DNA of 64,000 bases from Sphaerolaimus hirsutus (Eukaryota; Nematoda; Chromadorea; Monhysterida; Sphaerolaimidae): positions 23,077,832 through 23,141,831 of the forward strand of contig OZ038458.1 of NCBI GenBank assembly GCA_964036195.1, given 5' to 3'. Made by a program: the position numbers and the translations under genes. A model generated the notes under the pieces. It searched no databases, was not told the DNA's origin, and was given only the letters and a program-made list of their open reading frames with translations. Of the stretch, positions 6,101 through 44,696 are shown in pieces; positions within the stretch are counted from its first letter, which is position 1; every line of letters begins with the position of its first letter.

Positions 6101-9100
6101 TTTGAACGCCGCTTCATCTTGGATCCCCAATATTGCCTCGTCACAAATTTCAGTTGAGCATCCCCCCTCAGTGGACACCGATTTGACGCCCTTACGTGAA
6201 CGGGTAGAGGTGTGAGGTTTTTTTACAGTACTCGAATCACACTCCATGTTAGTAATTGTAAATATTAGTAGACACTGAACATCGTACCTGAATATCGGGG
6301 GTAGATGTAGAATATTGAATTCAGAAATTGATATATAGCCATTTTGATGTTTTCGATTTTTTTGGCACCATGCCATGATCTGAAAAGCCATGATCTGAAA
6401 AGCCAGGATCTGAAAATCGACCAGCATGTCCCCACCTTGATTTGTCAAGAGGGTGCCCGGTCGTGACATCTGTTTCAGACCATTGGCACTTCGCGGAAAA
6501 CATCGAATGAATGTTGAATGTGGGGATTTACCCATGTAACACAAGCAAATTGCAGGATTAAGGTTATATGCAAGCAACAAAGGACTCATAAAACGACTCA
6601 GCAAGCATGTTAGTAAGCAACAATCAAAACTTACCTCCAACACGCCTCGAAATTTGATAAAAATAGAATATCGATGTTTTTGGCACAATGCCAAAGTCTG
6701 AAAATCGGCCATCTCTAACCCACAATGGGTTGTTGATAGTGAAAGCGGCCATGAATGTACATTCAGACAAGTGGCATTTAGAAAAGAACAACGATTGATA
6801 AGATATAGTGGGGATTTACCCATTTCTGGACTCGAAACGAGTCGTGCCAGAAGAGTTTGGCACTCTGCCAGATATGCAGATTCGGCTAAAAAGCCGTTTT
6901 TTGTGACAATGGTCACATTTGGGAGGGTCACAGTGGGCGAAGAGGGATTGGACCTCTCACCCGTGCCCTCGAAACACGCTAAAAACACTCTAGAAAACGT
7001 TTGCAGCTTGAATCTATCTCTATACGGGATTTACCGAAGCGAGAAAGATTTTTTCTTTTTTCGACAGTCTTAATTTCTTTCTTTAGTTTCTTTTGACTTA
7101 ATTGAAACTACAAAAAATGCTCAAAATTGAGTGAATACCTGCTAGTGATGTAAAAGCGCTTGGCGATAGCGCCAAACGGAAAATATCAAATCGAGTTGAC
7201 ACCGAAACCAGTTGACATCGAGTTGACACCGAAACCAGTTGACATCCAGTGTGTGGCACCTAAGTGACGACCACTTTAGTAACCACCTAAGTAACCACGG
7301 ACCAGAAGCCGCTGGCGGTCTGCTGCAGCACCACGTGCACGTGCTCCTTCTTCCACAGCGCCGACAGCACGTAGCACCGCTTGCCCTTCACCTCGGTCGC
7401 GCGCACCAGGAAGTCCCCGTTCTTCCGCAGCAGCTCAGCCACAGAGTTCCTGGGCCGCGATCCAATTGGAAGCGAGGTGAGAGGGTGGGCATGATTTTGG
7501 GATATTGTGCTATTTCAACGTTTTCACGTGATACAGCATAGTTGCCGTAATCATTTGTATCGTGGCACTTTATTTTCATTGTTTGTGTGGGTCGATGCTT
7601 TAAGAAATCTTAAAATCATTTAGTTGACATTCAGTTGACACAAATTGGCGATGTCAACTAGTGTGTATAGGCCCTTCAAGGCGTTGCACAAACTGGGGCA
7701 AGTCCCTAAAAGTACTTTACTCTTTACTTTATTACTGATATTGCTCTTGACTTTTAACTTGATTCTGGTGCTGGTTCCGCAAGTGGCAAATTTAAAGAGT
7801 CAAGTTAAAAGTAAGAGAAAAGTCAAGAGTAAAGTACTTGGCAACTTGCGCGACTGGCCCCTGAGTGTCAACTACCGTATTTCCTCGAAATACCCCCCCT
7901 CGTTCTACCCCCCCCCCCCTCTCGAGACCACTTTTAAACAATCACCCCCCGGGGGGTATTTTGAGGAAATACGGTAGTTGCGGTGTGAATGCAGCCCGAC
8001 CTGGGCAGCAGTCCGTGGTAGTAGTCCTGCACCTCGAGCGGCACGGCTGCGGTGCTGGCGGCGGCGCCGCTGTCGCTCATCTCCGACTCCCTGCTCATCT
8101 GCTTGACCGTCTTTTGTTTGGGCACAGGCACCGCCGCCGTCTCTGGGGGGCGGGGTTTAGTTGTTTCGGTGCCAGGGTTCTTAGCTAGCTCGAAAAAAAA
8201 GAAAGTTTTTTCCCACTGACACTTTACACTTTGAAAGGTTGACACTTTAAAAGGGGGTAAGTGGCGTTGAAAAATTTGGAAAACGTGCGGTAGAAATTCC
8301 AGATGCTATTTCCTTGAAAAATGTGCGATGTCTTGGATTTTTTGACTGTTAGGAGGTGAACGGCCCACTTGCAAATGTCTACTCAAAAAAAACAAAAGTA
8401 AAAAAAAAGTACTAAAACAAGCGCAATCTCTAACAGATTTGGACCATTTCCAAGACTCACCTTTATCACTGCGTATCGACCGGTTCTCATTAGAGCTTTT
8501 AGAGTTTTTCTTCCTTGTCGGCAAGTCATCAGACTGAAACGACCCTGCTGCAACTCCCAGACCCTGCAAAATGCCCTGTAAATTGGCAAACGTACATTCA
8601 CATAACATTTTGCAATTTGCATGACATTTGCCATTTCCACAGCAGTTTACAGGGTGCGGGAGTGGCACCTTGCCCGCTGCGCGGCCGAATTTTTGCTTTT
8701 ATCCTTGTAACTGCCTGCGAAATGAAAACCATTTTGATAGTGGAGTGAGCATAAATAATTGAGGGGTCAAAAAACGGATGCAGTTTGGATGGGAATGCCT
8801 TTTCAGTTGACCCAAACCAGTTTCAGTTGACAAAGTGGCCCAGTTTTGGCGCGGAACAACCCACCAGCAGTTCGGGAACTCCCACTGACTGAGCTTTTTT
8901 CTTCGAGCCTGTATTCACATTTTCGGTGGTCGCGTTAGCGGAGGGTCGGCCCTGCAGTTTTACCGAATTTACGAACGTATTTCTTGGTGCCGATAAAAAA
9001 GATTGGCCAATAAATTGCAACAGTATAAGGTTGCGCTTGGCATTAATTGCTAATTCAGCAGTTTATCAAGTGGTGACTAGCGATGGAATGGCGCCATGGC

Positions 9101-13019: not shown

Positions 13020-13252
13020 GGGCCCACACACACTAGTTGACATCGCAAATTCGCGTCAACTCAGTGTCAATTGAATAAAACAAGAAGTTTGTAAAAAGCA
13101 TCACACTTAACAGGAACAATGAAAATGAAGCGTCATATGATGTAAAATTAACTATGCTCTATCAGATAGATAAGTTGAAATCACAGTATCACTTAAATTC
13201 AGTTGACATTTAGTTGACACGAATTCAGTTGACATCCAGTGTGTGGGGGCCC
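13020..13252. mobile_element. GGGCCCACACAC element after the LSD1 remnant
   Basis: Ends GGGCCCACACACACTAGTTG and CAGTGTGTGGGGGCCC, with repeated TTGACATC and GTCAACT motifs inside. Starts 17 bp past the stop codon of the remnant. Confidence 0.8.
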
Positions 13253-13268
13253 ATTCACACCCCCCCCC

Positions 13269-15541: not shown

Positions 15542-15599
15542 CTGCAGTTGGCAAAGTTGGCATATTGTCTCCGCGCACACTAGTTTTCACACGAAATTT

Positions 15600-16647: not shown

Positions 16648-19600
16648 CTGCGGGGGTGTTGCCCTATTGTAGGGCGCTGGAGGGTGGGGGCCCGGCCGTG
16701 TCCCGTGAGATGTAGAATGCCATGCAAAGTGATGCGAAAGGCAAATGGGTTTGTCATTTTTCGGGCACTTTTACATGACGTTGGAGACTGCATGGCATTT
16801 GATATAATAATAATAATCAATTTGTTTATTGGTCCATCGACTACACACACATGAGAAGAATATCCTCACGGTGCTTTGAAGAGTCGCACCCTCAAATGGC
16901 ATTTTACAGGACCTGGGAATGGCATTTGTTTTGTCACCGTCCCACACGCCGTAAAATGCCAGTGGCTGGTCCAGCACAGTATAATTTAGTATTTATGTCA
17001 TAAATTGACTGTCAAAATTTTTTACAGTAGGTAGACCAATACAACACGACAACCGACAATTTCTCGTGACATTTTCCAGGGTGCGGGACTGCGGGACCAC
17101 CTCAAAATTCAATGTAAACACGCACCTCGTAAACGAGTACCCCGTAAGCCCACACGTCGCTCTTGTGCGAGTACTTCATGTCGGTGAGAGTTTCCGGGGC
17201 GAGCCATTTCACGGGCAGGGGGCGCGCCTTTTTGTCCATGCGCTCCTCCCCCGCCTCCACTTTGACCGACAGACCGAAATCGCTGATTTTAACGTGCAGC
17301 CCTGTGGGGTGGAAAGTTGTGGGGTTTTTTTTGTTGAGGGTTGATTGAATTGTTTGCTGTGACTGTTTTTTTTGTTTGAGACGAGTTTTTGAATATATCA
17401 CACTTAGTATGGAAACTTATCGTAACCGATCTGAATAATGAGCCAAAGGTTATACATTTATTTCATCATAATATTTCGTTTTTGTTACTATGGAATAATT
17501 ACGAAATTTATCACAAGATTTTGTTCGTCTAATTATGGGTTATGGTAGAATTCTGCACATACTTTGCGGTCCGCCGAGTATATTTCATACGCTTAATTTC
17601 AATGTTCGGTGGAAGTAGTGATGTGTGATGGAATGGTGCCATTTGAGGCTTCCAAAATGTGTCTTGGTGCTTGCCCTATATTGACTTTAGTGTCCAAAAA
17701 CCTTACCGCCTTGGTCAAAACTGTCAAGATTTTTTGTCAAAATAGGCACAAGACTCTGAGCAAACAAACCAGGGTCCAGCAGGCAGTTCCTAGCGGCTAC
17801 GTCTCTATGAACGCAGTGTTTTTTCTCCAAATAAGCCAAGCCTTCTGCTGCTTCGAGGCAAAATCGACGCCTGTCTGATGGCAGAATTTTCACTTTCAAT
17901 TTTGCCTGTTTTTTCAAATGCGCGCGCAGGGAACCGTTGGGGCAGAATTCCATCACGATCATCACCTGTGGGGGTAATATTTAGTGCAGGGTTAGATACC
18001 TATAGATATTTGTAAGGTATACTCAAACAATTAGACATTTTGCCAAGGTCTGGAATCTGATCCAGCACATTTTCACGAGATCTTTACAAAACTTTCAACA
18101 ATGTCTAATTCTTAAAGATGTCCCAATATCAAACTGACCCACCCCCCCCCCTAAAAAAAAATGAAGAAAAAAACCAACCGGCTCTTTCTGCGTGGCCACA
18201 CCAATCAATCTCACAATATTCGGATGCGTATACTCTCTCATAGTTCTCGCTTCAGCGATGAAAGCGGCCCTTTTCTCCTTGTCATTGATAACCCCCTTGA
18301 GGGTTTTCACTGCCACTGTGGCTGGGGGGTCATTTTGGTGCAGCACCAACGTGCCAAAAAACACCTCACCAAAGGCACCATGGCCGAGTGTTTTGCCTAG
18401 GGTTATCTGGGGGGTAGGGGTGGGGTTTGGGTTTGTAGGTAATTGTGTTGGCACCAGGTTTGTTTTCTATCTGATGCCTTTTAACCATTTTCAGCTATTT
18501 TTGGCTTTATTTTTATGTGCTTCTATAGCTTTTATGGTAGTCATTTTCCCTGTAGTTGTAGTGACTTTTCTCCCTTTTCTACACCCTGAAGAGATCTGTA
18601 TTCTGTTTGTCAGGATTTCCACACCAGGGGGGAGTCCCAAACCTTATAAAATGTTAAGTATAAAAATGTAAAATGTCAAAAACACACACAAAAAAAGATT
18701 TTATTATTGAACTTTGCATGATAATTTGACACTTTACTTTACATTTGCCATGACAATTGACGCTTTGCATGACATTTTACATGACATTTTACACTGTACT
18801 TTACACCTTACAGGGTCTGGGATTGGCACCTGTCTTTATCTCCTTCATAAATCATCATCAACATGTTTGAAAGATAATTAAATAAAGATAAAAATTCTAC
18901 CTGATCATTGTTCAGCTGCCAACTTTGATGGGAAACAGGCTTCAACAAAATAAATTTCTGGTTTCCAATTGGCTCCTTTGTTTTCGTGTAGTACAGGATC
19001 AAGTCTGGGATGCACTGGAAACAGTTGTCCATTTTGATGTGCCTTTGTGAAGGAATGAATGCCTCCATTAGATTTTGGTGATATCCAGTTTATTCAAATG
19101 TATGGTTCAAATTGGTGGTGCTCTCTGCCACAATATTTTTCCCGTTTTCCATTGAGTGTAGGAGAACATGTTTCACTGTATGTTCCATGAATTTTTGGCA
19201 TCTTTTTTTTTGGCAGGTATTATCTAATTTATGGTTTTTATTGACTTAATTGAAACTACAAAAAATGCTCAAAATTGAGTGAATACCTGCTAGTGATGTA
19301 AAAGCGCTTGGCGATAGCGCCAAACGGAAAATATCAAATCGAGTTGACACCGAAACCAGTTGACATCGAGTTGACACCGAAACCAGTTGACATCCAGTGT
19401 GTGGCACCTAAGTGACGACCACTTTAGTAAACTCGGCAGACATGAAAGGAATCAGTGATTCGGCCCTTACGTACCAATTTTAAATTTCGTTAAAATTGTT
19501 ACGTTAATTTTGAATTTGAATGAATGCATTCCAATCGATTCATGGTAAATCTTATTCAATCCGACGTTTTATGCGAGAACAGGATAAACTGGTCACGCAT

Positions 19601-22600
19601 ATTGTCGTATGAAAGCAGATAACAAGGTATTTTATTGTAACAGCCCGGACAGTTTCCCACAATAAAGTACGTATGTGTGCGTGCGAAAGAACAAGGGAAG
19701 TTCGACCCTGTACACTGTACACCACTAGCGAAATCTGGATCGTTTTGAAAATCTAAAAATTGCTCTGAATAACATAAAATGCTCACTATGTTCGTAATAA
19801 TAAGAAATTACCGTATATTTATCAAGTGTAGATCTTTAATTCAAATTTCGTCGGTGACGTTTCACTAATCTAATTGAAAAATTTGTTGATGGTCATCCCT
19901 ACGCATGAAATACGAGTGTCAAATACAATGAAATTGGGTTAGAATGGCACTCGTACAAAAATTCGTTAGACCATTGACTCGCATAATGTCTGCCGAGTTT
20001 AACCACGTAAGTAACCACCCACCAAAAGCCGCTGGCGGTCTGCTGCAGCACCACGTGCACGTGCTCCTTCTTCCACAGCGCCGACAGCACGTAGCACCGC
20101 TTGCCCTTCACCTCGGTCGCGCGCACCAGGAAGTCCCCGTTCTTCCGCAGCAGCTCAGCCACAGAGTTCCTGGGCCGCGATCCAATTGGAAGCGAGGTGA
20201 GAGGGTGGGCATGATTTTGGTCAATTGTGCTATTTCAACGTTCTCACGTGATACAGCATAGTTACCGTAATCATTTGTATCGTGGCACTTTATTTTCATT
20301 GTTTGTGTGGGTCGATGCTTTAAAAAATTCTAAAATCATTTAGTTGACATTCAGTTGACACAAATTGGCAATGTCAACTAGTGTGTATAGGCCCTTCAAG
20401 GCGTTGCGCAAACTGGGGCAAGTCCCTAAAAGTACTTTACTCTTTACTTTATTCCTGATGTTGCTCTTGACTTTTAACTTGATTCTGGTGCTGGTTCCGC
20501 AAGTGGCAAAGTTAAAGAGTCAAGTTAAAAGTAAGAGAAAAGTCAAGAGTAAAGTACTTGGCAACTTGCGCGACTGGCCCCTGAGTGTCAACTGCCGTAT
20601 TTCCTCGAAATACCCCCCTCGTTCTACCCCCCCCCCCCTCTCGAGACCACTTTTAAACAATCACCCCCCGGGGGGTATTTCGAGGGAATACGGTAGTTGC
20701 GGTGTGAATGCAGCCCGACCTGGGCAGCAGTCCGTGGTAGTAGTCCTGCACCTCGAGCGGCACGGCTGCGGTGCTGGCGGCGGCGCCGCTGTCGCTCATC
20801 TCCGACTCCCTGCTCAGCTGCTTGACCGTCTTTTGTTTGGGCACAGGCACCGCCGCCGTCTCTGGGGCGGGGTTTAGTTGTTTCGGTGCCAGGGTGCTTA
20901 GCTAGCTCGAAAAAAAAGAAAGTTTTTTCCCACTGACACTTTACACTTTGAAAGGTTGACACTTTAAAAGGGGGTAAGTGGCGTTGAAAAATTTGGAAAA
21001 CGTGCGGTAGAAATTTCAGATGTTATTTCCTTGAAAAATGTGCGATGTCTTGGAGTTTTTGACTGTTAGGAGGTGAACGGCCCACTTGCAAATGTCTACT
21101 CAAAAAAAAAGTAAAATAAAAGTACTAAAAAATGCACAATCTCTAACAGATTTGGACCATTTCCAAGACCCACCTTTATCACTGCGTATCGACCGGTTCT
21201 CATTAGAGCTTTTCGAGTTTTTCTTCCTTGTCGGCAAGTCATCAGACTGAAACGACCCCGCTGCAACTCCCAGACCCTGCAAAATGCCCTGTAAATTGGC
21301 AAACGTACATTCACATAACATTTTACAATTTGCATGACATATGCCATTTCCACAGCAGTTTACAGGGTGCGGGAGTGGCACCTTGCCCGCTGCGCGGCCG
21401 AATTTTTGCTTTTATCCTTGTAACTGCCTGCGAAATGAAAATCATTTTGATAGTGGAGTGAGCATAAATAATTGAGGGGCCAAAAAACGGATGCAGTTTG
21501 GATGGGAATGCATTTTCAGTTGACCCAAACCAGTTTCAGTTGACAAAGTGGCCCAGTTTTGGCGCGGAACAACCCACCAGCAGTTCGGGAACTCCCACTG
21601 ACTGAGCCTTTTTCTTCGAGCCTGTATTCACATTTTCGGTGGTCGCGTTTGCGGAGGGTCGGCCCTGCAGTTTTACACGTTTTTACCGAATTTACGAACG
21701 CATTTCTTGGTGCCGATAAAAAAGATTGGCCAATAAATTGCAACAGTATAAGGTTGCGCTTGGCATTAAGTGGTAATTCAGCAGTTTATCAAGTGGTGAC
21801 TAGCGATGGAATGGCGCCATGGCGCCATTTTGCCTGGCGCCCTTTGGCGCCTGGCGCCATTTTTCCTGGTGCTTTTCCATCACTAGTGTGACTTAATATA
21901 AAAACTTTGATAGATGCACAAAGTATTCAAGATAAACATTTCAAGTGTTCAAGTTTCCCTGACAAGTTATTATTAGTATTCTACAAATGTCATATTAGTC
22001 AAGAGTTCGAGTACAGTTCGTAATTACCGCATATCCTCGAAATAACCCCCCCCCCCCCTCAAAATGGAGACTATGAGTTTATAACCCACATCGAAATACC
22101 CCCCCCCTCCCCAATTGAGTGTAAAGAGAACGTAAATGACGAGGCAATGCAGAACACACGTTAAAAACAATGACTTTGTTACGTTAGAACACGGTATATA
22201 TTTACCAATTACATACCGTATTTCCTCGAAATACCCCCCTCAAAATGGACACTATGAACTTATAACCCCCCCCCCCAAATATAGTGTATAGAAGACGTAA
22301 ATGACAAAAGCTACAGTTTGATCCGGGAAACGCAGAATACACGTTAAAAACAATGACTGTGTTATGTTAGAACAGGGTTTATAACGTCTAGGTACTTACC
22401 GTATTACCTCGAATTATCCCCCCCCCCTTGAATTAACCCCCCCTCGAATTAACCCCCCCTCAAAATGGGCTGGGGAAATAATAAACCCCCCCCTCGAAAT
22501 ACCCCCCCTCCGGAATGATGTACATCATGTATGCAATGTACATGATGTATTTATTACTACTTATTTGCATCGCAGCTACTCTCATACGCTCATTTGTGCA

Positions 22601-23696: not shown

Positions 23697-23963
23697 TTTT
23701 GCAATGTTTTCTTTTTTAATTTGAAATTAGTTTAGTGGTGAACAGTGATGGATGCGGAAATTCGAAATTGTTTTGGGATTTTAAACTGAACTTCAGATTT
23801 TTTTACGTACGTATACTCGCGTACTGCGTAAATACGTTTACGTTTCCTCCCGACAAAAATACCCGTACTCACACACTCGCGTACTTTTTGAAAGTACGCG
23901 AGTACAGAAAACGTATTTTAAGGGGACAGAAAATGTTATTTTGCCAGACAGAAAGTGACAAAT

Positions 23964-24586
23964 AGGGTGTCAAAAAATTTTTTAACGGAAAACGGAAACG
24001 GAAAAAAATTTCAGCGGCTGGAAAACGGAACGGAAAACGGAAAAAATTGCACTTGGCGGAAAACGGAAACGGAAACAGAAAAATAATTTCAGTGGCCGGA
24101 AAACGGAAAAAGGGGCCGGAAAAACGGAAACGGAAAAATGAAATTTCCATGGAAACGGTAAAAATTTGCTGAAATTTTACCAAAAAATGGATAAAATTTG
24201 CTGAAATTTTGCTGGAAGAGGGAAAAATTAGCAGAAATTTTGCTGGGAAAAGAAAAAATTTACATAATTGACAATCTGCATGAATTTTTTCCCAGTTTGG
24301 CTGGAACAGTAAACAGAAAATTGAGCCAAAAAAGTAAAATGAGGTGGAAAAACAGAAAATGGAGGCGGAAAACGGAAAAAAGGCAGAAAACAGGAAATTG
24401 AGCCGGAAAACGGAAAAAAGACGGCAAAACTTAAAATGTAGCCGGAAAACGGAAAATGAGCGGGAAAAACGGAAAAAAATGTGGCCGGAAAACAGAACGG
24501 AAAACGGGAAAAAAATTTCAGCAGCCGGAAAATGGAACAGAAAACGGAAAAAAATTGCCTGCGGAAAACGGAAATTTGACACCCTA
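23964..24586. mobile_element. AGGGTGTCAAA element, copy B
   Basis: Duplicate of 11247-11878, within 300 bp upstream of the copy B kinase start codon. Confidence 0.88.
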
Positions 24587-25293
24587 GTGACGAACATAGG
24601 ACATTTTCTCAAGAAATGCTTATCAGGAGAGAAAAACACACACACCTTTGATATATTTCACGTATAACAACTTTTACGTTTTTTTTGTGAGAAAAATATT
24701 CACTTTTACGTTTTCTGTGGGAAAAAACAACACTTTTATGTATTCCCTTGAAAAAATACTCATTTTTACGTTTTCTCAAAAAAAAGAAGTATTTTACTCA
24801 CCTTTTACGCAGTGTAAAAATAAAAATACAATACTTTACGTTTTCTGTACGCACGTGTGAGTAAAATAAAAATACTTTACGTTTACGTTTACTTTAATAA
24901 AAGTTCGGTTCTTTTAACAACTCTGGCGTATTACTATAAAATACAGGAGTTATAAAATCTCCGAAAAGTATCTGAATAATCTTGTCGCCAATTCAAACAG
25001 CAACTCTCCTCAGAAAAGAGTTCTCAATAGATCTCTCTTATATCTCAAAATTCTAAATTTATTTTTCAGAACGCTTTCCATCGCTAGTAGTGTCTGTGGT
25101 GATGGCAATCTCGGCTGGAGGGGGGGGGGCTTTTTCAACTCTCAGGGGTCACTTCGTTTGATATTTTATGTGGTCGTTATGGCTCATTCGAACAGATTTT
25201 ATAGCATTCATTGGGTTGCAAAAATGGTCGCGTATACGAGGAAGATTTTTTAACAATGAAAGTGTGTACTTATTACTCGGCAAATTAAATATA

Positions 25294-25583
25294 CCGTATT
25301 TACTCGAATAATAACCCCCCTTCAACGATTTCGGTCGTTAGATGGGTGTGGAAAAAACATTCCCCTTTGAATAATTCCCACCGCTGATGCCGGTGAATCT
25401 GAACATTTGTAGTATCCAATTTGAACAACAATAGCTTGTTATTTTGATTAAAAAGCATATTTAGTAAAATGAATTGATAGAAACAAGCTTGAAATATTTG
25501 AAGAAAAACCTAGTGATCGCCTCGTAAAGTTTCCCCTAAAAAAAGTATGACGAAAAAATACTGTTCTGTTCAAGTAAATACGG
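25294..25583. mobile_element. CCGTATTTACTCGAATAA element, copy B
   Basis: Copy of the 12584-12874 insertion in the LSD1-kinase intergenic region. Confidence 0.75.
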
Positions 25584-25728
25584 TACATGCACAAAAGACT
25601 GACACATTGAAGATAAATACAGTAAATTCAGTGGTCACATCTGTGCATCGTAAAATATGCGTGAAATTGCCTAAAATACCAATTAAATGCCATCCCAATA
25701 TACGCATTCATTGATCGCAATTCACATT

Positions 25729-25959
25729 GGGCCCACACACACTAGTTGACATCGCAAATTCGCGTCAACTCAGTGTCAATTGAATAAAACAAGAAGTTTG
25801 TAAAAAGCATCACACTTAACAGGAACAATGAAAATGAAGCGTCATGATGTAAAATTAACTATGCTCTATCAGATATATAAGTTGAAATCACAGTATCACT
25901 TAAATTCAGTTGACATTTAGTTGACACGAATTCAGTTGACATCCAGTGTGTGGGGGCCC
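25729..25959. mobile_element. GGGCCCACACAC element after LSD1
   Basis: Same insertion as at 13020-13252. As it starts 17 bp downstream of the LSD1 TGA, it probably supplies the 3' UTR. Confidence 0.8.
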
Positions 25960-25976
25960 ATACACCCCCCCCCCCC

Positions 25977-26103
25977 TCAGGGGGCGTAGGGGCACTGGAG
26001 GTACTGCTCTGCGATGCGGCCGGCCTCGCGCAGCCCCGAGATGATGGCGCCGTGCACGGTGGCCGCCTGCCCGTGCGCCGTGTGCTCGCCGCAGAAGAAC
26101 ACC
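25977..26103 (-). CDS. KDM1A: LSD1 exon i (terminal)
   Basis: [19 protein letters not shown], then [16 protein letters not shown], ending QCPYAP and a TGA at 25977-25979. Contains the FAD-contact GEHT and ATVHGA motifs. A GGGCCC-ended element starts 17 bp past the stop and must form part of the 3' UTR. Confidence 0.95.
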
Positions 26104-29100
26104 CTGATAAACACTTTAAAGGTAGCACTTGATTAAGTGAGGTGGCACACTTTTCGGGCAGTTTTTTTGAAGTGTGTGGATTTTATTGTGTGGAATTGGG
26201 GTCGAGAAATGGGATCTTAGGATAGTGATGGAAAAGCGCAAAATGTTCCCAACGAATTAGTTTACACAGGAAATTTTCAAAATTCAGCCTTGAGAAATTT
26301 CTGAGTCATTCGAGTGATAATCGCTACCTGGAACTAATGCCGGACCTCGTCAAGTTACAAATTTCCGAGTGCGTGTAAAGTTCTCAGCCAAGCATCGACC
26401 AGGCGACTTAAACGCCATCCGCAACTTGACAGGACATTTGAAACTTTGTCCAAATTATGTAACTTCATCCACTATATTTATGACAAAACCCCCCCAAATG
26501 AGCAAAAGGCCATTGCAGCGCCACCCCCCCCCCCCCCCCCCAGGAGCACCTGTGTTTGTTGGCCACGTTCGACTCTGAGCCGGGGGCGGCGGCGGCGCGC
26601 GGCTGCGGCTCGCAGCTCGTGTCCTTGTCCGTGGACTCGTTGCTCACCGGCGCCGCCAGGATGTCGTAGTCGTCTTCTGTTGGTTTTTGGAGGGGGGGGG
26701 GGGGGTTAGCATTATGGTGTCAACAATTTTTTTTACGGAAAACGGAAACGGAATTTTTTGCACTCGAAATACACACCCCCCAAAAAAATTGTATGCAAAT
26801 AAAACGTACATGATAAAACGTGCAGTTCGTGATCTAGCAATGCATTACAAACGTTAAAAAGAATGACTGCGTTACGTTAGGACATGGTTTATACCAATTA
26901 CATACCGTATTTCCTCGAAATACCCCCCTCAAAATGGGCACTATGCATTTGTGGTCCAGGAAATGCATAACAGACGTTCAAAACACTCACTGTGTTACGT
27001 TAGAACATCGTTTATACCATCTACATCCTTATGTAAGGCTGTAAAAACTTATAAATGGTGAGTTTTGTTGCATTTTTTACGTTTTTCTCTCAAAATTTTC
27101 ACTCTGAAAAAATAAACCCCCCAGGGGGTAATTCGAGGAAATACGGTACATACCTACTATAAGGCTGTAGACTGTTTTACATGGTGGTTTTTGTTGCATT
27201 TTTCTACGTCTGCGTACGTCACAAAAAAACAAACTAGTACTGGGAGTTCAAAAAATTTCTGGCGAAATAATAAACCCCCCTCGAATAACCCCCCTCAAAA
27301 TTCTCACTCTGAAACAATAACCCCCCGGGGGGTATTTCAAGGAAATACGGTATACCAAAACTGCCCACCATCAAACGACTATAGAAAAAAGAAACGTGAC
27401 AAACCACTGGCGCCGACGGCCACGTAGCTGTAGGAGCCGCGCGTCCAGCAGTCTGCCCGCCAGCGAGTCACCACCGACCCCAGCGGCTGCGCAACCACAA
27501 TAATGCGCCAAAATTATACTCGGCAAACATGATACTCTGCCCTCGCACTGATTTATGTCTCGTGTTGGAAGCGTGCCAACGATTGTTAAATCATGCGATT
27601 TCCATAAAAATATGTAAAAATTTATCGATGTGAATATGTTTATGAATAACATTATAACAATCAATTTTGTGATCTTTTTATGAAACTCGCACGTGTGTTA
27701 ACCATCGTTGGCACACTTCCAAAGGGAACCACGCGTGCAAGCGGTAAAGTAACCGGAGTATAGAGTGACACTTTTCACTGCAGTGAACTTTAATTGAAAA
27801 ATGTATTTATGTGAGAGTGCGGCTAATAGGATTTGGTCATGATGTGTGTAATAATAATTCAGGTGCCTACTTTCTAAGGTCGATCAGTCCATTTAAATAG
27901 TGGAGTTGTCGACTTCTCAGATAGTGGAGCTGTCGACTTCTTGACCGTATTTTTTGTGACTCTTGCAAAAGTGTCAACATCCGACTCTTCAAAACGGTAC
28001 ATGTACCTAAATATAGTCAGATTTTTTTAATATGAAATCAGTCCAAATTGCACGGCCGAACCTTGGGCACGCCGCTGGTGCCGAACATCTGACAGAGGGC
28101 CTGTACGCATCTGCCCACGACCACGTCGTCGCTCAGCTGCTCCATGTGCTCGGCGCTGCGGCCCGACACGCACACAGTCAGCGCACACTGCGTCGCGTTG
28201 GCCACCTGCCAACATTCGGGGGGGGGGGGTGTTTTTTGGAGGACGGTTGTTTTTTGAACGTGTCTAGTGTTTTCGGATTACGGTGGACGTCTTTGGCGGC
28301 TTGAATACACTAATTAACAACGGGCATCATATATTCAAGATTTTCCACATTTCCACTCTATTAAAAATAAAAGAGCACCTGACTATTTCCGTCGGCGGTG
28401 CTGAAAAAATGGAACAAATCGCCGCGGGAGTCTGTGCAGGCGGCGGCGCGGCCGAAAGTGTTGGCTCCGCCCACCGCGGGCTCCCAGAACGGCCGGTCGA
28501 AGAACAGCACCACCTGCAGTTGGCAAAGTTGGCATATTGTGCCTGCGCACACTTGAAGGGTGTGCTTCTAAAAGTACCGATCTACAAAAAATCGATTTTG
28601 AGATACATGCGATTGAAAGTTTGGAGTATGCAATACCCATACATGGGTATTTGGTATGGGAATTTTGGGTGTGGGTATTTCGGCCATATTGTTGGGTATC
28701 CACATGCATGGGTATAATCATTCATTATACACATAACACTAGCTATATAAAATTTAGTGAATTGTATTTTTGTAGTACAGTACATTTTAAAGGAACAAAT
28801 TGGTAATAGCATGTAGATCGGTATGTTTTAAAGCACAAAATCAGAAAGCTGTAGATCGGTACTTTTACCCATAATAAAAAAGCACAAAATGAGTTTTTGC
28901 GCAACCGGACACCGATCTGACATCGGTACTTTTCGAAGCACAAAAAATAATGTGCAGATCGGTACATTTAAAAGAACAATTTTTAAAAAAGTGTGTAGAT
29001 CGGTACTGATAAAGACACAAAAGCTGAAAAAGCTTGTAGATCGGTACTTTTAAAATTTCAAAAACTGTATTTTGTGATTTTTTTGCTTTTTCGACCCCCC

Positions 29101-31014
29101 AATGTCAAAATTGAATTTCGCACCCCCCACATATTATATATATTTTTGAAGCGCATTCTTATGGGGACCGCAAAAATGGTCCTAACTCAAATTTGAAAAA
29201 TTTGTAGATCGTACTTTTAGAAGCACACCCTTCACTTGTTTTCACACGAAATTTCGAAAACTCACAAATCAGCTTAAAACGCATTTGAGTTTTCTACAAT
29301 GAGATGGCCGTCAACTACAGTTGACGGAGATTAAAAATGACTCATTGTAGAAAACTCAAACATGTTCAAAGCTCATTTATGTGTTTTTGAAATTTCTTAT
29401 GAAAACTAGTGTGCGCAGGGCCATTTTATCAACATTTCAATGAAAAATTCGGAATAATATTTTCATTAGAAAAATATCAACCTTGTTCAAATTGCCAAAG
29501 CCGAGTCTCCTGGTGGCAGTCCCAAGCCCTGTAAAGTGTAAAGTAAAGTGTCAAATGTAAAGTCAAATGCAAAGTAAACTGTCAATTGTCATGCAAAGTT
29601 CAGTAATAAAATCTTTTCTTTTTTGTTTTGATTGACACTTTACTTTGCATTTGACTTTACATTTGACACTTTACTTTACACTTTACAGGGCTTGGGACTG
29701 CCACCTGATGGCGTCGACTTTCCACTGGGGCAGCGGGGGGTCGAAGGCCACCTTGAAGGGCGGCTCGTGCTGCTGCGCCACCCGCAAGCTCTGCTTCTCT
29801 GAAAGATGAGAATAGATTGAAAATTGATTTAAGAGCCAGGCGTCAGGTACCCCCCCATTTGAATTCAAATATTGTGATGGGAAAATGTCTACAGTAGGCA
29901 CGATTTTAGGTAATAGCTGTCCACTATGTGAAATTTATATGCGAATTAAATAAACCAGGAGCTAGTCGCGCACGCTGTCAGGTCATAGGTCAAGTGCCAT
30001 GCAAAATTTCATACAAATTGGTCGAGTGTCATGTTAAAATATGTAATACAAATTTGTCAAATGCCATGCAAAATGTAAAAAGTTCAAAAATAAAAACTTC
30101 TTTTTTGATAGACACTTTGCATGACATTTAACACTTGACATGGCACTTTACGGGGTGCGGGATAGCCACTGTCACCAGGGTATTTTCCACATCCTGTAAA
30201 ATGAAAAATAACTTTGTCATGGTGACATGTACAACGTTCAGTAAAAAAAGAAAAATTTCACCAGGCATTCTACACGGCGCTGTACAAACGTGCCAGACGT
30301 TTTACATTTGAGTGTGCGAGACGGTCCCCCATCCACCAACCAATCAGCGGCTTCCATCCATCCGCAACTGAATCCTTCAAAACGCCCAACGGCAGCGAGC
30401 AAAGACACACGTCGGCGGAAATTGTTTCTGTCTTGGAAAGGTCCAGTTTATGACTGGCATCCAATGGAGCCACGTCAATCTCCACGCCAGTGTTGGTGTA
30501 TTTGATCTGGTGCCAATTACACAAGTTGACAAGTGACAAGTAAAGTGCTAAGTAAAATGACAAGTGGTAGGTTAAGTGACAAGTATACTTTGTGCCTACG
30601 CACGCTAGTTGACAACCAGAAGTTGACAAGTAAAATTCAAAAACTGATAAATCTGTTTTTTAACACATTTAAGTTGACCAAAGTGAATCATATGTGATCT
30701 CCGTCAACAGTAGTAGACAAGACTTCTCATTCTAGTAAACTCAAATGTTTTGAAACTGATTTACCAGTTTTCAAAATTTTCATTGTCAAATAGTGTGTGC
30801 AGGGTCCCAAGTATTTCCATACACAGTTTATCTCAATACTATTCACTTTACGAAATTACCTTGTCACTTAACTCGCCACTTATCACTTCACTTACCACTT
30901 CATTTTCTCGTCACTTGTGCACTTTTGGAATTGGCACCTGGGTGACGACCTGCTGCAGCTGAACATCCAAACCCTTGGCTAGTTGCTCGGCCACCGTGCA
31001 GAAGCCGCCCTTCA
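25977..31014 (-). CDS. KDM1A: LSD1/KDM1A-like lysine demethylase, C-terminal half, nine exons
   Basis: Exons: 30938-31014, 30341-30506, 29705-29798, 29482-29509, 28379-28513, 28062-28205, 27405-27486, 26550-26676 and 25977-26103; all phases agree. They encode the second half of the FAD amine oxidase domain of a histone H3 demethylase. Marks: LPLGVLK; PPLPQWK with the catalytic-site Lys (Lys661 in human LSD1); [46 protein letters not shown]; and the FAD-binding [15 protein letters not shown] and [14 protein letters not shown]. The stop is at 25977. A 41-residue segment before GEHT is longer than in human. The SWIRM and tower parts are not found up to 64 kb. Two of its introns are transposons. 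Confidence 0.93.
26550..26676 (-). CDS. KDM1A: LSD1 exon h
   Basis: [15 protein letters not shown], then a Ser/Glu/Ala-rich stretch ending VANKH. It starts like the NDYDLMAQP of LSD1 but carries a longer, less conserved loop before GEHT. Acceptor CCAACAG, donor CACAG|GTGCTC. Confidence 0.88.
26905..27351. mobile_element. CCGTATT elements in the LSD1 g-h intron, copy B
   Basis: Equivalent of 14184-14625; the inner element is 26905-27146. Confidence 0.72.
27405..27486 (-). CDS. KDM1A: LSD1 exon g
   Basis: 27 codons plus one base: [17 protein letters not shown], then [10 protein letters not shown]. Near-identical to the LSD1 core [17 protein letters not shown]. Donor G|GTTTGT. Confidence 0.95.
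27517..27760. mobile_element. TACTCGG element present only in copy B
   Basis: Begins TACTCGGCAAAC, ends CCGGAGTA, flanked by TA. The empty site in copy A is AAATTAGAGG at about 14788. Reverse-oriented relative of 47151-47395. Confidence 0.85.
28062..28205 (-). CDS. KDM1A: LSD1 exon f
   Basis: 48 codons: [15 protein letters not shown] to [12 protein letters not shown] to [16 protein letters not shown] is typical of LSD1. Acceptor TTGGCAG, donor AAG|GTTCGG. Confidence 0.93.
28379..28513 (-). CDS. KDM1A: LSD1 exon e
   Basis: 45 codons, phase 0: [14 protein letters not shown] to [10 protein letters not shown], equivalent to VVLCFDRVFWDP of human LSD1. Acceptor AACTGCAG, donor CAG|GTGCTC. It is the first exon inside the duplicated unit; copy at 15407-15541. 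Confidence 0.94.
28541..29422. mobile_element. GCGCACACTAG element enclosing another element
   Basis: Outer ends GCCTGCGCACACT and AGTGTGCGCAGGGC. Inner arms carry CGCATTTGAGTTTTCTACAA and its inverse. The duplication breakpoint of copy A falls inside this element. Confidence 0.8.
28554..29234. mobile_element. TGAAGGGTGTGCTTC element nested at 28.5 kb
   Basis: Inverted ends of 34 bp (TGAAGGGTGTGCTTCTAAAA and onward) match except for one deleted base. CT flanks both sides, and copy A shows the empty site. The interior repeats a TAGATCGGTACTTTTA motif about seven times. Confidence 0.88.
29482..29509 (-). CDS. KDM1A: LSD1 exon d (28-nt micro-exon)
   Basis: One base plus nine codons, giving RLGFGNLNK after joining. 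This corresponds to MGFGNLNK of human LSD1, directly between exons c and e. It lies between the introner acceptor CCACCAG and an AAG|GTTGAT donor. Too short to be seen by ORF length; recognised by homology and phase. Confidence 0.92.
29510..29704 (-). mobile_element. Introner: 195-bp inverted-repeat element forming LSD1 intron c-d
   Basis: The intron begins GTGGCAGTCCCAAGCCC and ends GGGCTTGGGACTGCCACCAG. Its two arms of about 75 bp differ at about one base. CAG precedes and ends it, a 3-bp target duplication. Removing the element leaves ATCAG joined to GAGACTC, encoding Ile-Arg-Arg-Leu, the conserved LSD1 reading. Both splice sites are thus set by element ends plus the duplicated CAG. Non-autonomous, no ORF. 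Confidence 0.93.
29705..29798 (-). CDS. KDM1A: LSD1 exon c (catalytic Lys)
   Basis: 30 codons with split codons at both ends: [15 protein letters not shown], then [15 protein letters not shown]. The Lys of QWK matches the lysine that positions the catalytic water in LSD1. Acceptor TTTCAG. The donor ATCAG|GTGGCA is the first base of a 195-bp introner. Confidence 0.92.
30341..30506 (-). CDS. KDM1A: LSD1 exon b
   Basis: 55 codons plus one base, from [12 protein letters not shown] to [15 protein letters not shown]. The chosen donor (ATTG|GTTGGT) keeps phase with the next exon and resembles the kinase exon 8 donor. It leaves about 20 extra residues compared with human LSD1, so the exact end is uncertain. 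An 18-nt micro-exon near 30195 is conceivable but not supported. Confidence 0.75.
30507..30937 (-). mobile_element. Introner: 431-bp element forming LSD1 intron a-b, with a nested element
   Basis: The intron begins GTGCCAATTCC and ends AATTGGCACCAG. Arms of about 75 bp, rich in AAGTGACAAG-type motifs, match at roughly 70 percent. CAG flanks both sides. Excision joins CACCCAG to ATCAAA (Thr-Gln-Ile-Lys) in frame. The middle, about 30593-30806, holds a GCGCACGCTAG-ended fold-back element. Confidence 0.88.
30938..31014 (-). CDS. KDM1A: LSD1 exon a
   Basis: Two bases and 25 codons: [20 protein letters not shown], then QQVVTQ, matching the LSD1 segment before the catalytic region. The acceptor follows a long C-rich tract. 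The donor CAG|GTGCCAATT is the first base of an introner. Phase 1 at the start means at least one more upstream exon exists. Confidence 0.88.
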
Positions 31015-31333
31015 CTGAGTGGGGGGGGGGTTGTTTGAGGGTGGGGTAGGGTGGGGTGGGGTGGGGTTAAGCGTTTTTCAGTAGATGTTTTGTAGTTTTG
31101 GATATTTGAATGACGTAGAATTCAATCCCAAACCCAATTTTCCCCCGTTTTTGCGAGTCGCGTTCGCGAGTTTTTTTTGCGAGTTTTTGTGCACAGAAAG
31201 GTATATCAACATAAATAAAAAATGTTTGGTTTATTGGCACATCAGCCAATTTTTCCAGCTACCGTATTTTCTACAATAATTCCCACATGGAATATCCAAA
31301 ATCTGCTGAACACTATATTTATATTTAGGTATA

Positions 31334-31743
31334 CCGTATTACCTCGAAATACCCCCAGGGGGTTTATTATTTCGCCAGCAAAATTTGAAGGGGGGATAAT
31401 TCGAGGGGGGGTCTATTATTTCGACAGAAATTTTCGGAAATTCCCCATACGCAGACGTAGAAAAATCGAACAATTACATAGATGTATATGTGTTTATAGG
31501 CATATATAACTGTATAAACAAAAACCCTACTCTAACGTCACTTAATCATCAGTTTTAACGTGTGTTCTGCATTGTACAGATCACAAACTGTGGTATTTGT
31601 CATGTACGTTCACGTTACACTCAATTTTAGGGGGGGGGGGTATTTCGAGGGGGGGTTTATTATTTCCCCAGCCGAAATTTAGGGGGGGTATTTCGAGGGG
31701 GGGGGGGGTTAATTCAAGGGGGGGTTCATTCGAGGTAATACGG
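31334..31743. mobile_element. CCGTATTACC element
   Basis: TA-flanked, with ends CCGTATTACCTCGAAATACC and TTCGAGGTAATACGG, and many G runs inside. Lies just upstream of the first visible LSD1 exon. Confidence 0.85.
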
Positions 31744-32122
31744 TACATTGAACTTTTATAAGCAACCACTTTTTCTAAATGCTGCCCCCGCGCACAATTA
31801 ATTGCAAAATTTATCCCAAAGCCAAGCTCGCGTATAAATAAATACCGAATAAACTTTCCATCCAGTCAGGTACCAATTCACAAAAGTTGTTTACAAAAAG
31901 GCGCCCTTTAAAGTGGCGGCGGCGTGCCGATTTGTTTTGCAAACGGTGGCAAACATTTGAAAAACATCAATCAGTCACGTAAATAAACAATTCGGGGGTC
32001 CAAAATTGTGTGGATTGTGCCAAAAATAATTCGACACTGGCGCCATCAAGTGTTTGGTAAATAAAATATCGTCTGAATCTGACCGCACGCGACTGTAAGC
32101 GATTTTGGTCATTGTGCTCTTA

Positions 32123-32402
32123 CCGTATTTCTTCTAATAGAACAGCGTCATTATACTTTTCCGTCACGTTTTTACCTGTCGTACCAATGGAGGATGCCGT
32201 TCTAGTTTTTCACCAATTTTTCATTTGAAAATTTGAATTTGAAAATCAGATTATCAATTAGAAATTGGGTATCTATTTGAATGCTTTAAACGCTGTCGCC
32301 ATCCACCTTTTGTGTTTTGGCACTGTTCCAACATTCTACAACAGCACATTTTACCTGCCGTTCTATTGGAGATACTCCGTTCTACTATTAGAACAAATAC
32401 GG
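32123..32402. mobile_element. CCGTATTTCTTCTAATAGAAC element
   Basis: Ends CCGTATTTCTTCTAATAGAA and TATTAGAACAAATACGG between TA dinucleotides. A CCGTTCTA inner motif is repeated. A subfamily without poly-C ends. Confidence 0.75.
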
Positions 32403-33014
32403 TATCAGTGAAGCGTGGAAAATGAAATGAATACCGATTCCGCACGCCTAATAACATACCTATTTAATTATTTGCATATTTATTTACGTATTTACGTTTA
32501 CTATTTACGTATATTATTTTACGGCTAAAAATTCCGAACAAACTTTGTAATTACGAAAATCAATATTTAGCAGCTTAAGCACACGATTCATATCACTACA
32601 ATACAAGTGGAATTCATAGATGTGTAAATACAGATATTTGTGCATTTGTAATTTGGTTTCATTTAAATTTCTTTCATGAACATGTATTGTGTTTGTCCCT
32701 CTGAAACTGGGCTGATTTTCGACACAGAAAACCCTCAAACAACACAGAAAAAATTGCGAGGTCCTTTCAATAAAATCACACGCAGATGCATGCATATGGG
32801 GCATCTTTCAGGTGCCATCTCGTGTTACCAATTACACAACAATGGCTACCAACTGTTTTGCTCGCAATGTTTAAACACCGAATGCACAATGCTATGCTTC
32901 CATTCAGATACCGTAATCCGACGAATAATTGAACACGGATCTAAGAATGCAAAACAGTGTAAACACATTTATGGTAGAAGTAACCGTTGAAAACGAATGC
33001 TTTGAAGCGTGCAG

Positions 33015-33190
33015 CAAAACTCTGGTGACTCTGGAAAATGTCAAATGTCAAAATCAAATGGCAGTGTCAAAAAGTCAAGTAAAATGAACTGTATAACGGC
33101 AATCTGTGTTTGTTATTTTCAAGTTCATTTTACATGACTTTTGACACTTTGCATGACATTTTATATTTTACAGAGTCTGAGGAGGGCCCC
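33015..33190. mobile_element. Degenerate introner-family element
   Basis: Runs from ACTCTGGAAAATGTC to ATTTTACAGAGTCTGAG, with repeated TGTCAAA and TTTGACA arms. No exon is visible on either side, so it looks like an intergenic or deep-intron copy. Confidence 0.45.
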
Positions 33191-33257
33191 CTGCCAGTCT
33201 TCTCAGTTATAATGTTGCAAATCCGATTTTGCAATGCATAATCTTCCATGCTACCTC

Positions 33258-34346
33258 AATGGGCTCACACACGCTAGTTGACATCGACACCAAATGTCAA
33301 CTGGTGCCGATCCCGATTCAAAGCTTGCTGACGAGTGGACGAACGACGTTCAAACGCAATCTTTGAATTAGGAACGGAACCGGGGGTATCCCATTGAGAC
33401 AAAAGTGTTTTGGGACAACAGTAGCTTTGATACAACAAAAATGCTCATTGAGACAAAAGCTACTTTGATACAATAGTTTGTGCATTGGTACAACACCCTG
33501 TGCATTGGTACAACACCCTGTGCATTGGTACAACATTTGTTGCTTTGATACAACACCTGTCGATTTCACGTGTAAGCATCCATTATATTATGAATGACAT
33601 AATACCTGCAACATAATATTGAGACCTCATTGAATTTCCTGCACCTGTTTGTAAGAGAGCAAATTAGAGTGGAACATAAAAGTTTTCGGCATGCCCAAAG
33701 GATTTGAAGTGGCCGGATGCTGCACAAAGTACCAACACACACTGCGTGCACTGATTAAAGCGATTAAATGTGCAAATTTTGTAAAACTTTTTTTGGAGCT
33801 GGAACACTACCTGGAACTGGACCCGGCATCAACATTGTAATTCCAGGGAGGTCATTTTGAACACTAGTTTACTGAACTAGTGTTCAATTTTTTTTACTTT
33901 TACTATTTACTTTTTTTACACGGTTTTTTTCAAACCTTATTTTTCAATTTGCACGTTGGCAGCATCTGGCAGCATGTGCAGTAACTGGCCATTTCAAATC
34001 CTTTTTGGCATGCCAAAGCTTTTATGTTCCGGCTCTGATTTGCTCTCTTACAAACTGGTGCAGTAAATTCAATGAGGTCTCAATATTATGTTGCAAGTAT
34101 TATGTCATTCACAATATCATTCAGGCCAAATACAATAAATGTTGTATCAAAGTGGCAAATGTTGTACCAATGCACATAGTGTTGTACCAATGCACAAACT
34201 GTTGTATCAAAGTAGCTTTTGTCTCGATGAGCGTTTTTGTTGTATCAAAGCTACTGTTGTCTCAAAGCACTTTTGTCTCAATGACGCACACTCAACGGAA
34301 CCAGTTGACATTTGGTGTCGACGTCAACTAGCGCGTGTGACCATTG
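33258..34346. mobile_element. Large fold-back element with long arms
   Basis: CAATGGGCTCACACACGCTAG on the left and its inverse CTAGCGCGTGTGACCATTG on the right. Left and right arms match over several hundred bases, including TTGTATCAAAG and GTTGTACCAATGCACA blocks. A short central spacer is near 33840-33900. Confidence 0.8.
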
Positions 34347-34493
34347 GCGCCACACACGCTGGATGTCAACTGAATTAGTGTCAACTAAATTTTAGTGAAT
34401 TGTGATTTCAACTTTCCCATGTGAAGTTGGTTTTTAGTTGACATTGAGTTGACGCGACTTTGCGATGTCAACTAGCGTGTGTGGGCCCATTCA
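34347..34493. mobile_element. Short CACACACGCTGGATGTC element
   Basis: CCACACACGCTGGATGTCAA on the left and GATGTCAACTAGCGTGTGTG on the right; a short relative of the GGGCCC elements. Confidence 0.7.
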
Positions 34494-34518
34494 GACAACT
34501 ACTGTAGTCACTACAAGT

Positions 34519-35114
34519 AGGGTTCAAACGGGATTGACTTTTCGGGATCGGGATCGGGATTCACTTTTTGTGATTTCGGGATCGGGATCGGGATTGGGGT
34601 TTCGGGATCGGGATCGGGATCGGGATTGGTTTTTTGAAATTTCGGGATCGGGATCGGGATCGGGATTGGCCGGGATTGGGGTCACGGGATCGGGATCGGG
34701 ATTGGGATAGGCATTTTTCCGGGATTGGGATTGGGTTCTAGGGATAGAAATTTTGGCCATTTTTCTGGCATTCACAGTTGTTCATAAAGGTCTCAAAACA
34801 CTGTTTGATGCCAGAATAGTGGCATAAAATTGACGCTGGGGGTTTGCATCCACTTTTTTGCATGCAAAAATGTCATTATTTCCCTGTTTATAATTTCCAC
34901 TAATTTTTCCGGGATCGGGATCCCGGACTTGGGAGTTTCTCGGGATCGGGATCGGGATTTGAAAACTTTCGGGATCGGGATCGGGATTGGTATTTTTGAG
35001 ATTTCGGGATCGGGATCGGGATTGGGGTTTCGGGATCGCGATCGGGATCGGGACTGGTAAATCCCGGAATTTCACGGGATCCGGGATCGGGATCGGGATC
35101 CCGTTTGAACCCTA
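34519..35114. mobile_element. AGGGTTCAAAC element, 596 bp
   Basis: Flanked by a perfect 9-bp duplication ACTACAAGT (34510-34518 and 35115-35123). Ends AGGGTTCAAACGGGAT and ATCCCGTTTGAACCCTA. The outer parts are GGGATC arrays. The 9-bp duplication points to a Mutator-like transposase. Confidence 0.92.
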
Positions 35115-40310: not shown

Positions 40311-40788
40311 TAAACTATTTAAATGTGTCGCTTTAAGAGGAGACCATTTTTCAAGACGGACCAAATTTCCAGAGAAAAAATTAATAAAATTTTTGTAAAT
40401 ATCTATGCAGCTTAATTAAAATTTCCCCATCGATGCGAGTGGCCAACTCGCACATAAACACATATAAACATGGGTCCGCAGTAATGCGAAAATGCATCCC
40501 TGCCGCCGTTCATGACGATTTTCCATTTCACGGCGCAGAAATGGATCGGCCATTTCATTAGATCCAGCGTTTTTCAATATCACTATTTACTAGCTAACGC
40601 ACCGCTTCGCATCTACTATTATTTAAGTAGTAGAAATTTTACTTTGCTTGGCATTGAGATTGTATGGTGGTGGATCTTGACCGGGTCGAGGGCAACGCCA
40701 CCGGGACCGATACCGTTACCGCGGATTTAGTACGGTAGGGTACCGGTGCAGCGGTGGTGCAATAGAATGAAACTTTCTGGTTTCTTTA

Positions 40789-41105
40789 TCTGCCAGACCA
40801 TGTCAAATGTAAGATGTTAAAAATGTGTAGATTTCATGTAAATTGTCATGTAAAATGCCACGGAAAATGTTAAATGCCTGGTAAAGACAAAAAATGTTAA
40901 ATGCCTGGTAAAGACAGAAAATTAGACCTTTTGCACGAATTACAAAACTTTACATTTTACAGAATTTGGGACCACTCCCAGAAAAGTGGCCAGTAAAGTG
41001 TGAAATTTTCTTTCACTGTTTTAAACAGGATATTTGACATTTTTCATAACATTTTACATCACTTTTGACACTTTGCTTCACCTATAAATTTTATAGTGTC
41101 CAGGA
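40789..41105. mobile_element. Degenerate introner-family element(s)
   Basis: CTGCCAGACCATGTCAAATG on the left, ACATTTTACAGAATTTGGGA in the middle and a TTTTATAGTGTCCAGGAG end. Two overlapping or nested copies are likely. An ATGTTAAATGCCTGGTAAAG unit is tandemly repeated near 40867-40920. Confidence 0.4.
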
Positions 41106-43395: not shown

Positions 43396-43991
43396 TAGGG
43401 TTCAAACGGGATCCCGATCCCGATCCCGGATCCCGTGAACTTCCGGGATTTACCAGTCCCGATCCCGATCCCGAAACCCCAATCCCGATCCCGATCCCGA
43501 AATCTCAAAAATACCAATCCCGATCCCGATCCCGATCCCGAAAGTTTTCAAATCCCGATCCCGATCCCGAGAAACTCCCAAGTCCGGGATCCCGATCCCG
43601 GAAAAATTTATGGAAATTATAAAAAGTGAAATAATGACGTTTTTGCATGCAAAAAAGTGGATGCAAACCCCCAGCGTCAATTTTATGCCACTTTTCTGGC
43701 ATCCAACAGTGTTTTGAGACCTTTATGAACAACTGTGAATGCCAGAAAAATGGCCAAAATCTCTATCCCTAGAACCCAATCCCGATCCCGGAAAAATGCC
43801 TATCCCAATCCCGATCCCGATCCCGTGACCCCAATCCCGGCCAATCCCGATCCCGATCCCGATCCCGAAATCTGAAAAAACCAATCCCGATCCCGATCCC
43901 GAAACCCCAATCCCGATCCCGATCCCGATCCCGAAATCTCAAAAAGTGAATCCCGATCCCGATCCCGAAAAGTCAATCCCGTTTGAACCCT
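43396..43991. mobile_element. AGGGTTCAAAC element, 596 bp, inverted relative to 34.5 kb
   Basis: Flanked by ACATGTCAA on both sides (43387-43395 and 43992-44000). Same length and content as 34519-35114 in reverse. Confidence 0.92.
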
Positions 43992-44696
43992 ACATGTCAA
44001 CTGGGTCGACTGAGTTTCATCAAGATTTTTGTTGATGAGTTTCGAACATGCCACCTAAATAGAACTAAAATTGAGTTGACACTCGTTTGACAGTTGACAG
44101 TATCAGTTGACTGAGTTTGAGTAAAACAGTTGACATTCAGTATCTCTGGCGCCGATCCAAACGGATTACATCGGGCAGCATTTCACTCAAATTTTGCCGC
44201 GCCGCTATTCGAAATCGTTCAAAGACAATGGCTCCAAATTGTTGTGGACGCGCAATTAAACAACTGCATTTACCACCTGGCGTGAATTGCGCCGCCGCGG
44301 TGATTGCATATATGCAGATTGAAAATGAAATACCCCCCCCTCTGACCAGGTTTACGAATGTTGGCGTGGGCGGAAAATAGGAAAATTGTATTGTTGCAAA
44401 TGTGTCAAGTGTTTTTAAAGGTTTTTTTTGTGGATTAGGAGTTTTTGAATGATTTGCAATATAGCTTTTGCAGAATGTAATCATTTTAACATGCAGTAAT
44501 CCTGCAAATGCACTGTCCTGTAAAGTTTCCAATGCCATATAAATATGTTGGTGGGGATTTGAAACTTTGTGTGGAATTTGTCACTTAATTAGTCTTCAAT
44601 GCTAGACATTTTTTCCACCCACGAAAACTTGCAAGCATCAACCATATTCCCAAAAAACAAGAAATCTTTTAGCAATTCCGCCAATGTCACCTGATT
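43992..44696. other. Stretch between two AGGGT elements
   Basis: A moderately GC-rich block at 44150-44330 gives a 133-codon minus-strand frame (44137-44538) with no recognised domain. A GCCAG|GTGGTAAA donor-like site lies in it. Too weak to call a gene. Confidence 0.3.

Follow-up and report, generated by a model that had tools for sequence, protein, structure and literature searches.

Introners that have terminal inverted repeats and target site duplications, and that carry one splice site while co-opting the other from the duplication, have already been described (Gozashti et al. 2022, PMC9860276). Among 835 animal and land plant genomes, that survey reports introners from just two groups of animals and from none of the land plants; copepods are named in its text. 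Here we analyze a 64,000-nucleotide stretch of the nematode Sphaerolaimus hirsutus (GenBank assembly GCA_964036195.1, contig OZ038458.1, positions 23,077,832 to 23,141,831 of the forward strand; hereafter the window), in which an intron of the gene LSD1 consists of an inverted-repeat element, e1, and one CAG target duplication. We consider it very likely that this intron is an introner derived from a non-autonomous DNA transposon resembling a miniature inverted-repeat transposable element (MITE), which inserted in a CAG of an LSD1 exon and duplicated that CAG. By its anatomy, as read from the sequence, it is an introner and would work like the known ones: as in the surveyed cases, a short non-autonomous element with terminal inverted repeats and a target duplication makes up the whole intron, one splice site is carried and the other co-opted, and the length of the spliced product is unchanged. 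It differs from the introners of the survey in its 3-bp CWG (CAG or CTG) duplication, its 74-bp arms and its animal host (PMC9860276). A preliminary description of this DNA had called the family apparently unlike known introners, which holds at most at the level of the family, as introners of the same general build were on record.

Other described systems resemble the locus in part. The introner elements of Amoebophrya (PMC7789003) share with e1 inverted repeats and a potential hairpin joining the exon edges, and they too have direct repeats (3-5 nt) that extend across the junctions of exon and intron. However, they were defined among non-canonical introns and have inverted repeats of 8-20 nt, whereas the e1 intron is of the GT-AG type, flanked by CWG and with a stem of 74 bp, and the authors of that paper rule out a general transposase-mediated mobilisation. 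The copepod Eurytemora affinis (PMC5714493) is likewise an animal, and one that seems to have gained introns in a burst; GA and GG donors are reported from it, whereas the introns formed here by e1 and a second element, e2, have GT donors, and a word search of that paper met no terms for transposons, inverted repeats or hairpins. In our literature search, which was shallow in depth and mostly short of subscription journals, no CWG-targeting introners were met.

The e1 intron and its two flanking exons are as follows, in coordinates of the window.

29510..29704, minus strand: LSD1 intron E3/E4, 195 bp, phase 2, GT-AG; element e1 plus one CAG target duplication
29513..29704, no strand: element e1, 192 bp; terminal inverted repeats of 74 bp with 73 matches; tip GTGGCAGTCCCAAGCCCTG
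29510..29512, no strand: target duplication CTG (sense CAG) adjoining e1, source of the acceptor CAG
29705..29707, no strand: target duplication CTG (sense CAG), second copy, the final bases of exon E3
29705..29798, minus strand: LSD1 exon E3, 94 bp
29482..29509, minus strand: LSD1 exon E4, 28 bp, encoding RLGFGNLNK

The coordinates given in the preliminary description for an inverted-repeat element serving as an intron proved exact, as did its account of the splice sites: at the edges of e1 the donor GT is seen to come from the element tip and the acceptor AG from the CAG duplication. Within the first 74 positions of the arms the sole mismatch is at position 67, and the arms diverge from position 75 onward. 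Read in the sense of the gene (29704 to 29510), the intron runs GTGGCAG...CTGCCACCAG. When it is excised in silico, E3 and E4 join in frame into conserved LSD1 sequence that aligns with human LSD1, bearing out the earlier claim of a frame uninterrupted without the element, and together they amount to a single exon of 122 bp; when it is retained, a stop is reached at the eighth codon. The nine modelled exons, joined, match human LSD1 with E = 2.6e-66 over query positions 1-324, LSD1B being next at 6e-27. Sense RNA of e1 with 15 flanking bases per side has a predicted folding energy of -140 kcal/mol (z = -20.8), and none of 200 shuffled sequences was equally stable. The donor, GTGGCA, is not out of place in this gene, because the other modelled LSD1 donors are also loose (GTTGGT, GTTGAT, GTGCTC, GTTCGG, GTTTGT and GTGCTC).

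A second LSD1 intron is built in the same way.

30507..30937, minus strand: LSD1 intron E1/E2, 431 bp, phase 0, GT-AG; element e2 plus the CAG target duplication
30510..30937, no strand: element e2, 428 bp including a nested insertion; tip GTGCCAATT
30938..31015, minus strand: LSD1 exon E1 as far as recognised, with an uncertain 5' limit
30341..30506, minus strand: LSD1 exon E2; 3' limit picked for frame and GT donor

The arms of e2 match at 29 of the first 35 positions, a count derived from the score, and are identical at 58 of 71 aligned positions. Its nested insertion, about 210 bp at 30595-30804 by approximate limits set by eye, has inverted ends of its own, and e2 without it would be about 218 bp long, close in size to e1. 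One tip of e2 aligns with e1 as GTGSCARTYCCAA, after which both enter AAGTG-type repeats, and on these grounds we take e1 and e2 to be diverged members of one family; the pattern of tip and subterminal repeat is thus common to both introns, while the copies have diverged and both lie in one gene. The nearest other AG in the e2 intron is 41 nt upstream of the acceptor. Inverted ends of the CCCTGCGCACACTAG type were noticed at the nested insertion, and also, by eye, at about 28540-29410 in LSD1 intron E4/E5.

How often such a coincidence of edges arises by chance was gauged by scoring, for each CAG/GT...CAG pair in which the two sites are 60-1500 bp apart (the slash marks the edge), the inverted repeat anchored precisely at those edges. 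Among 1,719 pairs (1,193 on the sense strand and 526 on the antisense), a score above 4 was reached only by the e1 intron (71) and the e2 intron (17), the remainder scoring 0-4. Of the eight LSD1 introns modelled, these two have the edges of an element at both of their ends; the other six have no such inverted repeats at their edges, with weak scores of 5 at two of them.

Relatives of e1 and e2 were sought in the window by BLAST and with a position matrix of the tips, and the family tip sequence is GTGSCANTCCCRNACCCTGTAAARTG. With the matrix, 32 termini came up in the window, whereas five Markov-simulated windows gave 1-5 apiece, with a top score of 17.4. The count for the window is inflated, since the tips used for training come from the window itself; some of the weaker matches fall in minisatellite sequence. 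A search for terminal pairs, scored on positions 4-26 only with the flank and first bases excluded, gave 13 pairs above threshold in the window and none in four Markov-simulated windows. Nine independent copies are left when the duplicates 21261-21381 and 7768-7860 are removed together with 516-774, a related copy of 18628-18829 whose left end was mis-called, and 16694-17095, which joins the ends of two neighbours. A matrix made stricter by training on seven distinct tips with scores of 29 or more gave 12 pairs and eight independent copies after removal of the duplicate 21261-21381, the mis-called left ends 516-774 and 18570-18829, and the overlapping alternative 34347-34708; it loses 16694-16925 and 40784-40978 and gains 34347-34737, which has flanks TTG/CTA and lies in minisatellite-like sequence. 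Some copies lie in or near a gene with what we take to be SH2-tyrosine kinase exons, placed with a FES sequence; such exons and LSD1 in one window point to a holozoan host, probably an animal. Besides e1 and e2, the copies are these.

29959..30169, no strand: diverged relative, e3, inside LSD1 intron E2/E3; flanks CAG/TGT
18628..18829, no strand: diverged relative inside a kinase intron; flanks CAG/CTG; related copy at about 579-774
20488..20580, no strand: diverged relative with CTG/CTG duplication, seemingly non-coding, near an SH2 exon; segmental duplicate at 7768-7860
8548..8668, no strand: diverged relative where no gene is modelled; flanks CTG/CTT; segmental duplicate at 21261-21381
16933..17095, no strand: diverged relative within a kinase intron, without CWG flanks
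16694..16925, no strand: weak relative inside the same kinase intron as the preceding; flanks not CWG; missed by the stricter profile
40784..40978, no strand: weak relative, flanks TTT/CAG; not paired by the stricter profile

At 16925/16933 and at 30169/30178, tips stand back to back 7-8 bp apart, as if elements insert adjacently. Exact and degenerate tip patterns had no match in the collections of viral contigs and genome contigs searched.

The flank trinucleotides were left out of the matrix scoring and are the independent test of the family, which the tip counts are not. CAG or CTG stands directly outside 11 of the 18 termini of the nine copies, but at no more than one of 18 at each of the 12 other offsets from -6 to +6; with the stricter profile the count is 10 of the 16 termini of eight copies, or 6 of 12 without e1 and e2. 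The choice of duplicate affects this count, as the CTG at 8548 corresponds to CCG in its duplicate at 21261. An exact CTG/CTG duplication (plus strand) is present in three of the nine copies (e1, e2 and 20488-20580), and also in 7768-7860, the duplicate of the last; the flanks of the other copies differ from side to side, which is expected for old copies and proves nothing. The family thus appears to target CWG. The same target duplication is known from NuwaI, a group of the PHIS (PIF/Harbinger-ISL2EU-Spy) superfamily that is reported only from animals, with terminal inverted repeats of 12-61 bp that usually begin GGG (PMC4482050). In contrast, GTG is the commonest start in the window family (8 of 18 termini, among them the tips of both e1 and e2), GGG begins only two of 18, and the arms of e1 are 74 bp long. 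Because e1 and e2 lack the GGG start and the scanned frames yielded no transposase, we do not file the family as NuwaI.

The following sequence of events would account for these observations. A transposase supplied by an absent autonomous partner, with a target choice like that of NuwaI, would act on the tips and insert the element at CWG with a 3-bp stagger. In a sense-strand CAG of an exon, the product would be CAG/GTG...CAC CAG/, in which the GTG tip after the upstream CAG would create the 5' splice junction CAG/GTGG and the downstream copy of CAG the 3' splice site. Since the tip gives the donor GT and the CAG duplication the acceptor, precise removal by the spliceosome would restore the exon as it was before insertion, that is, a continuous LSD1 exon. 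A relative from the same CWG-flanked family would have made the e2 intron likewise, probably earlier. That the e2 intron is built alike, and that the CWG-flanked family extends across the window, strengthens the introner reading of e1.

Several points weigh against this reading. Both the splicing of e1 and the gain of an intron are steps that we infer. The predicted RNA fold encloses the donor GT of e1 within its long stem, and this may impede U1. Also, a rival AG (in TTTACAG) stands 19 nt upstream of the e1 acceptor, and its use would shift the frame; if the branch point lay in that TTTAC, the true acceptor would follow it at about 22 nt, and the inner AG might be masked by the hairpin. The seven relatives other than e1 and e2 are not known intron edges: four lie in modelled introns, one is in seemingly non-coding sequence beside a kinase exon and two have no gene model. 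There is no CWG flank at 16933-17095, at 16694-16925 or at 34347-34737, the pair found by the stricter profile only, and Pfam detected no transposase domain, nor a Myb/SANT partner protein, in six frames of 31,001-60,998 or in two minus frames of 22,001-34,000. In addition, neither human LSD1 as query nor Pfam frames revealed the amino-terminal half of LSD1 in the 33 kb upstream of E1, the six-frame Pfam scan of 31,001-60,998 giving a single weak match below the cut-off. An intron of great length or a mis-assembly may be the cause, or the gene at this locus may be incomplete.

One alternative is that e1 is an unspliced MITE within an exon of an LSD1 copy that is dead or incomplete, an idea to which the missing 5' half, the frame-shifting AG and a partial duplication of the gene lend some weight. 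E1-E4, and hence both the e1 and e2 introns, were found only once in the window, whereas the remaining exons are present twice, at 13.2-15.6 kb and 26.0-28.5 kb, the second copy being the one modelled here.

25977..28513, minus strand: LSD1 exons E5-E9, at 28379-28513, 28062-28205, 27405-27486, 26550-26676 and 25977-26103

We nevertheless regard a pseudogene as highly unlikely. The nine modelled exons are open when joined at their GT-AG introns, and both CAG-flanked elements sit exactly where splicing restores the frame. Furthermore, the two copies of E5-E9 differ at none of 615 exon sites but at 22 of 1,754 aligned non-coding sites (Fisher P = 0.0023), and on this account the coding sequence seems to be constrained, whether the copies are two duplicates or two haplotypes assembled in tandem.

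The CAG flanks themselves might be the product of ascertainment, if any 3-bp site can be targeted and only insertions at CAG survive as introns; a 3' splice site requires YAG, which would filter surviving exonic insertions to CAG. We give this scant credence, because CWG also flanks copies away from known intron edges: without e1 and e2 it is found at 7 of 14 termini (background 0.026, P = 2e-8) and, without 20488-20580 as well, whose tips entered the matrix after their CWG flanks were known, at 5 of 12 (P = 8e-6). The exact CTG/CTG duplications at 20488-20580 and 7768-7860 argue in the same direction. CAG at the LSD1 introns would then be the transposon's own target, not a mere survivor of splicing. 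Least probable of the three alternatives is an old LSD1 intron at the site in which a transposon later inserted or expanded until it filled the intron to its edges, for although other relatives do lie in pre-existing introns (18628-18829, 16933-17095 and 29959-30169), insertion inside an old intron should leave remnants, and here there is no residual intron sequence and the element edges with the CAG duplication are both splice sites exactly in two independent introns.

The age of the e1 insertion is less easily read than its structure. The preliminary description had inferred a young intron from the near-identical arms, and e1 does have the best arms of the nine copies, with 97% identity compared to 82% in e2 and 40-65% in the rest. 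However, terminal inverted repeats, unlike long terminal repeats, do not arise from a single template when the element inserts. Because they are not made identical at that moment, arm identity is not a clock that starts from zero and alone gives no date; what it does is limit later decay, unless the arms were homogenised. That e1 and e2 are the two best-preserved copies fits either recency or maintenance through splicing. A young e1 intron is therefore plausible.

The double occurrence of E5-E9 belongs to a segmental duplication of about 8.5 kb (7280-15581 and 20000-28553; 97-98% identity), which also takes in a portion of the kinase gene. It could have arisen by tandem duplication, or the assembly could have placed two haplotypes one after the other. 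The two segments differ by insertions, about 420 bp in each at different places and about 245 bp at 27516-27761 in the second. The latter, present in one duplicate only, has TATACTC-type inverted ends, seemingly at TA, and an 88% relative at 47149-47397; it is a second transposon family that moved after the segmental duplication. Elsewhere in the window, degenerate GGGAT-type minisatellite copies at 34513-35114 and 43396-43997 lie in inverted orientation, are 95% identical and translate to repetitive DP/IP strings, and there is a weak reverse transcriptase match on the minus strand at about 45100-45490 (PF00078, E = 0.002, below the cut-off). Scans of the window for tRNAs and Rfam families gave no matches, and a search for relatives of LSD1 in viral contigs gave six pattern matches, none of which was confirmed.

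The birth of introns is a long-standing question, and here a single gene presents a near-intact and a diverged copy of one element family, both forming introns. The case would tie the target choice of a known transposon group, the CWG of NuwaI, to the making of splice sites. We tentatively raise the possibility, which we think doubtful as it stands, that a CWG-targeting, NuwaI-like family with GTG tips is splice-ready by construction and continues to be one of the main sources from which this animal lineage gains introns. If so, target specificity alone would make precise introns out of hits in sense-strand exonic CAG, and the tip variants with GG or GA (18628, 20580 and 29959) could seed introns with GG or GA donors like those reported from one copepod.

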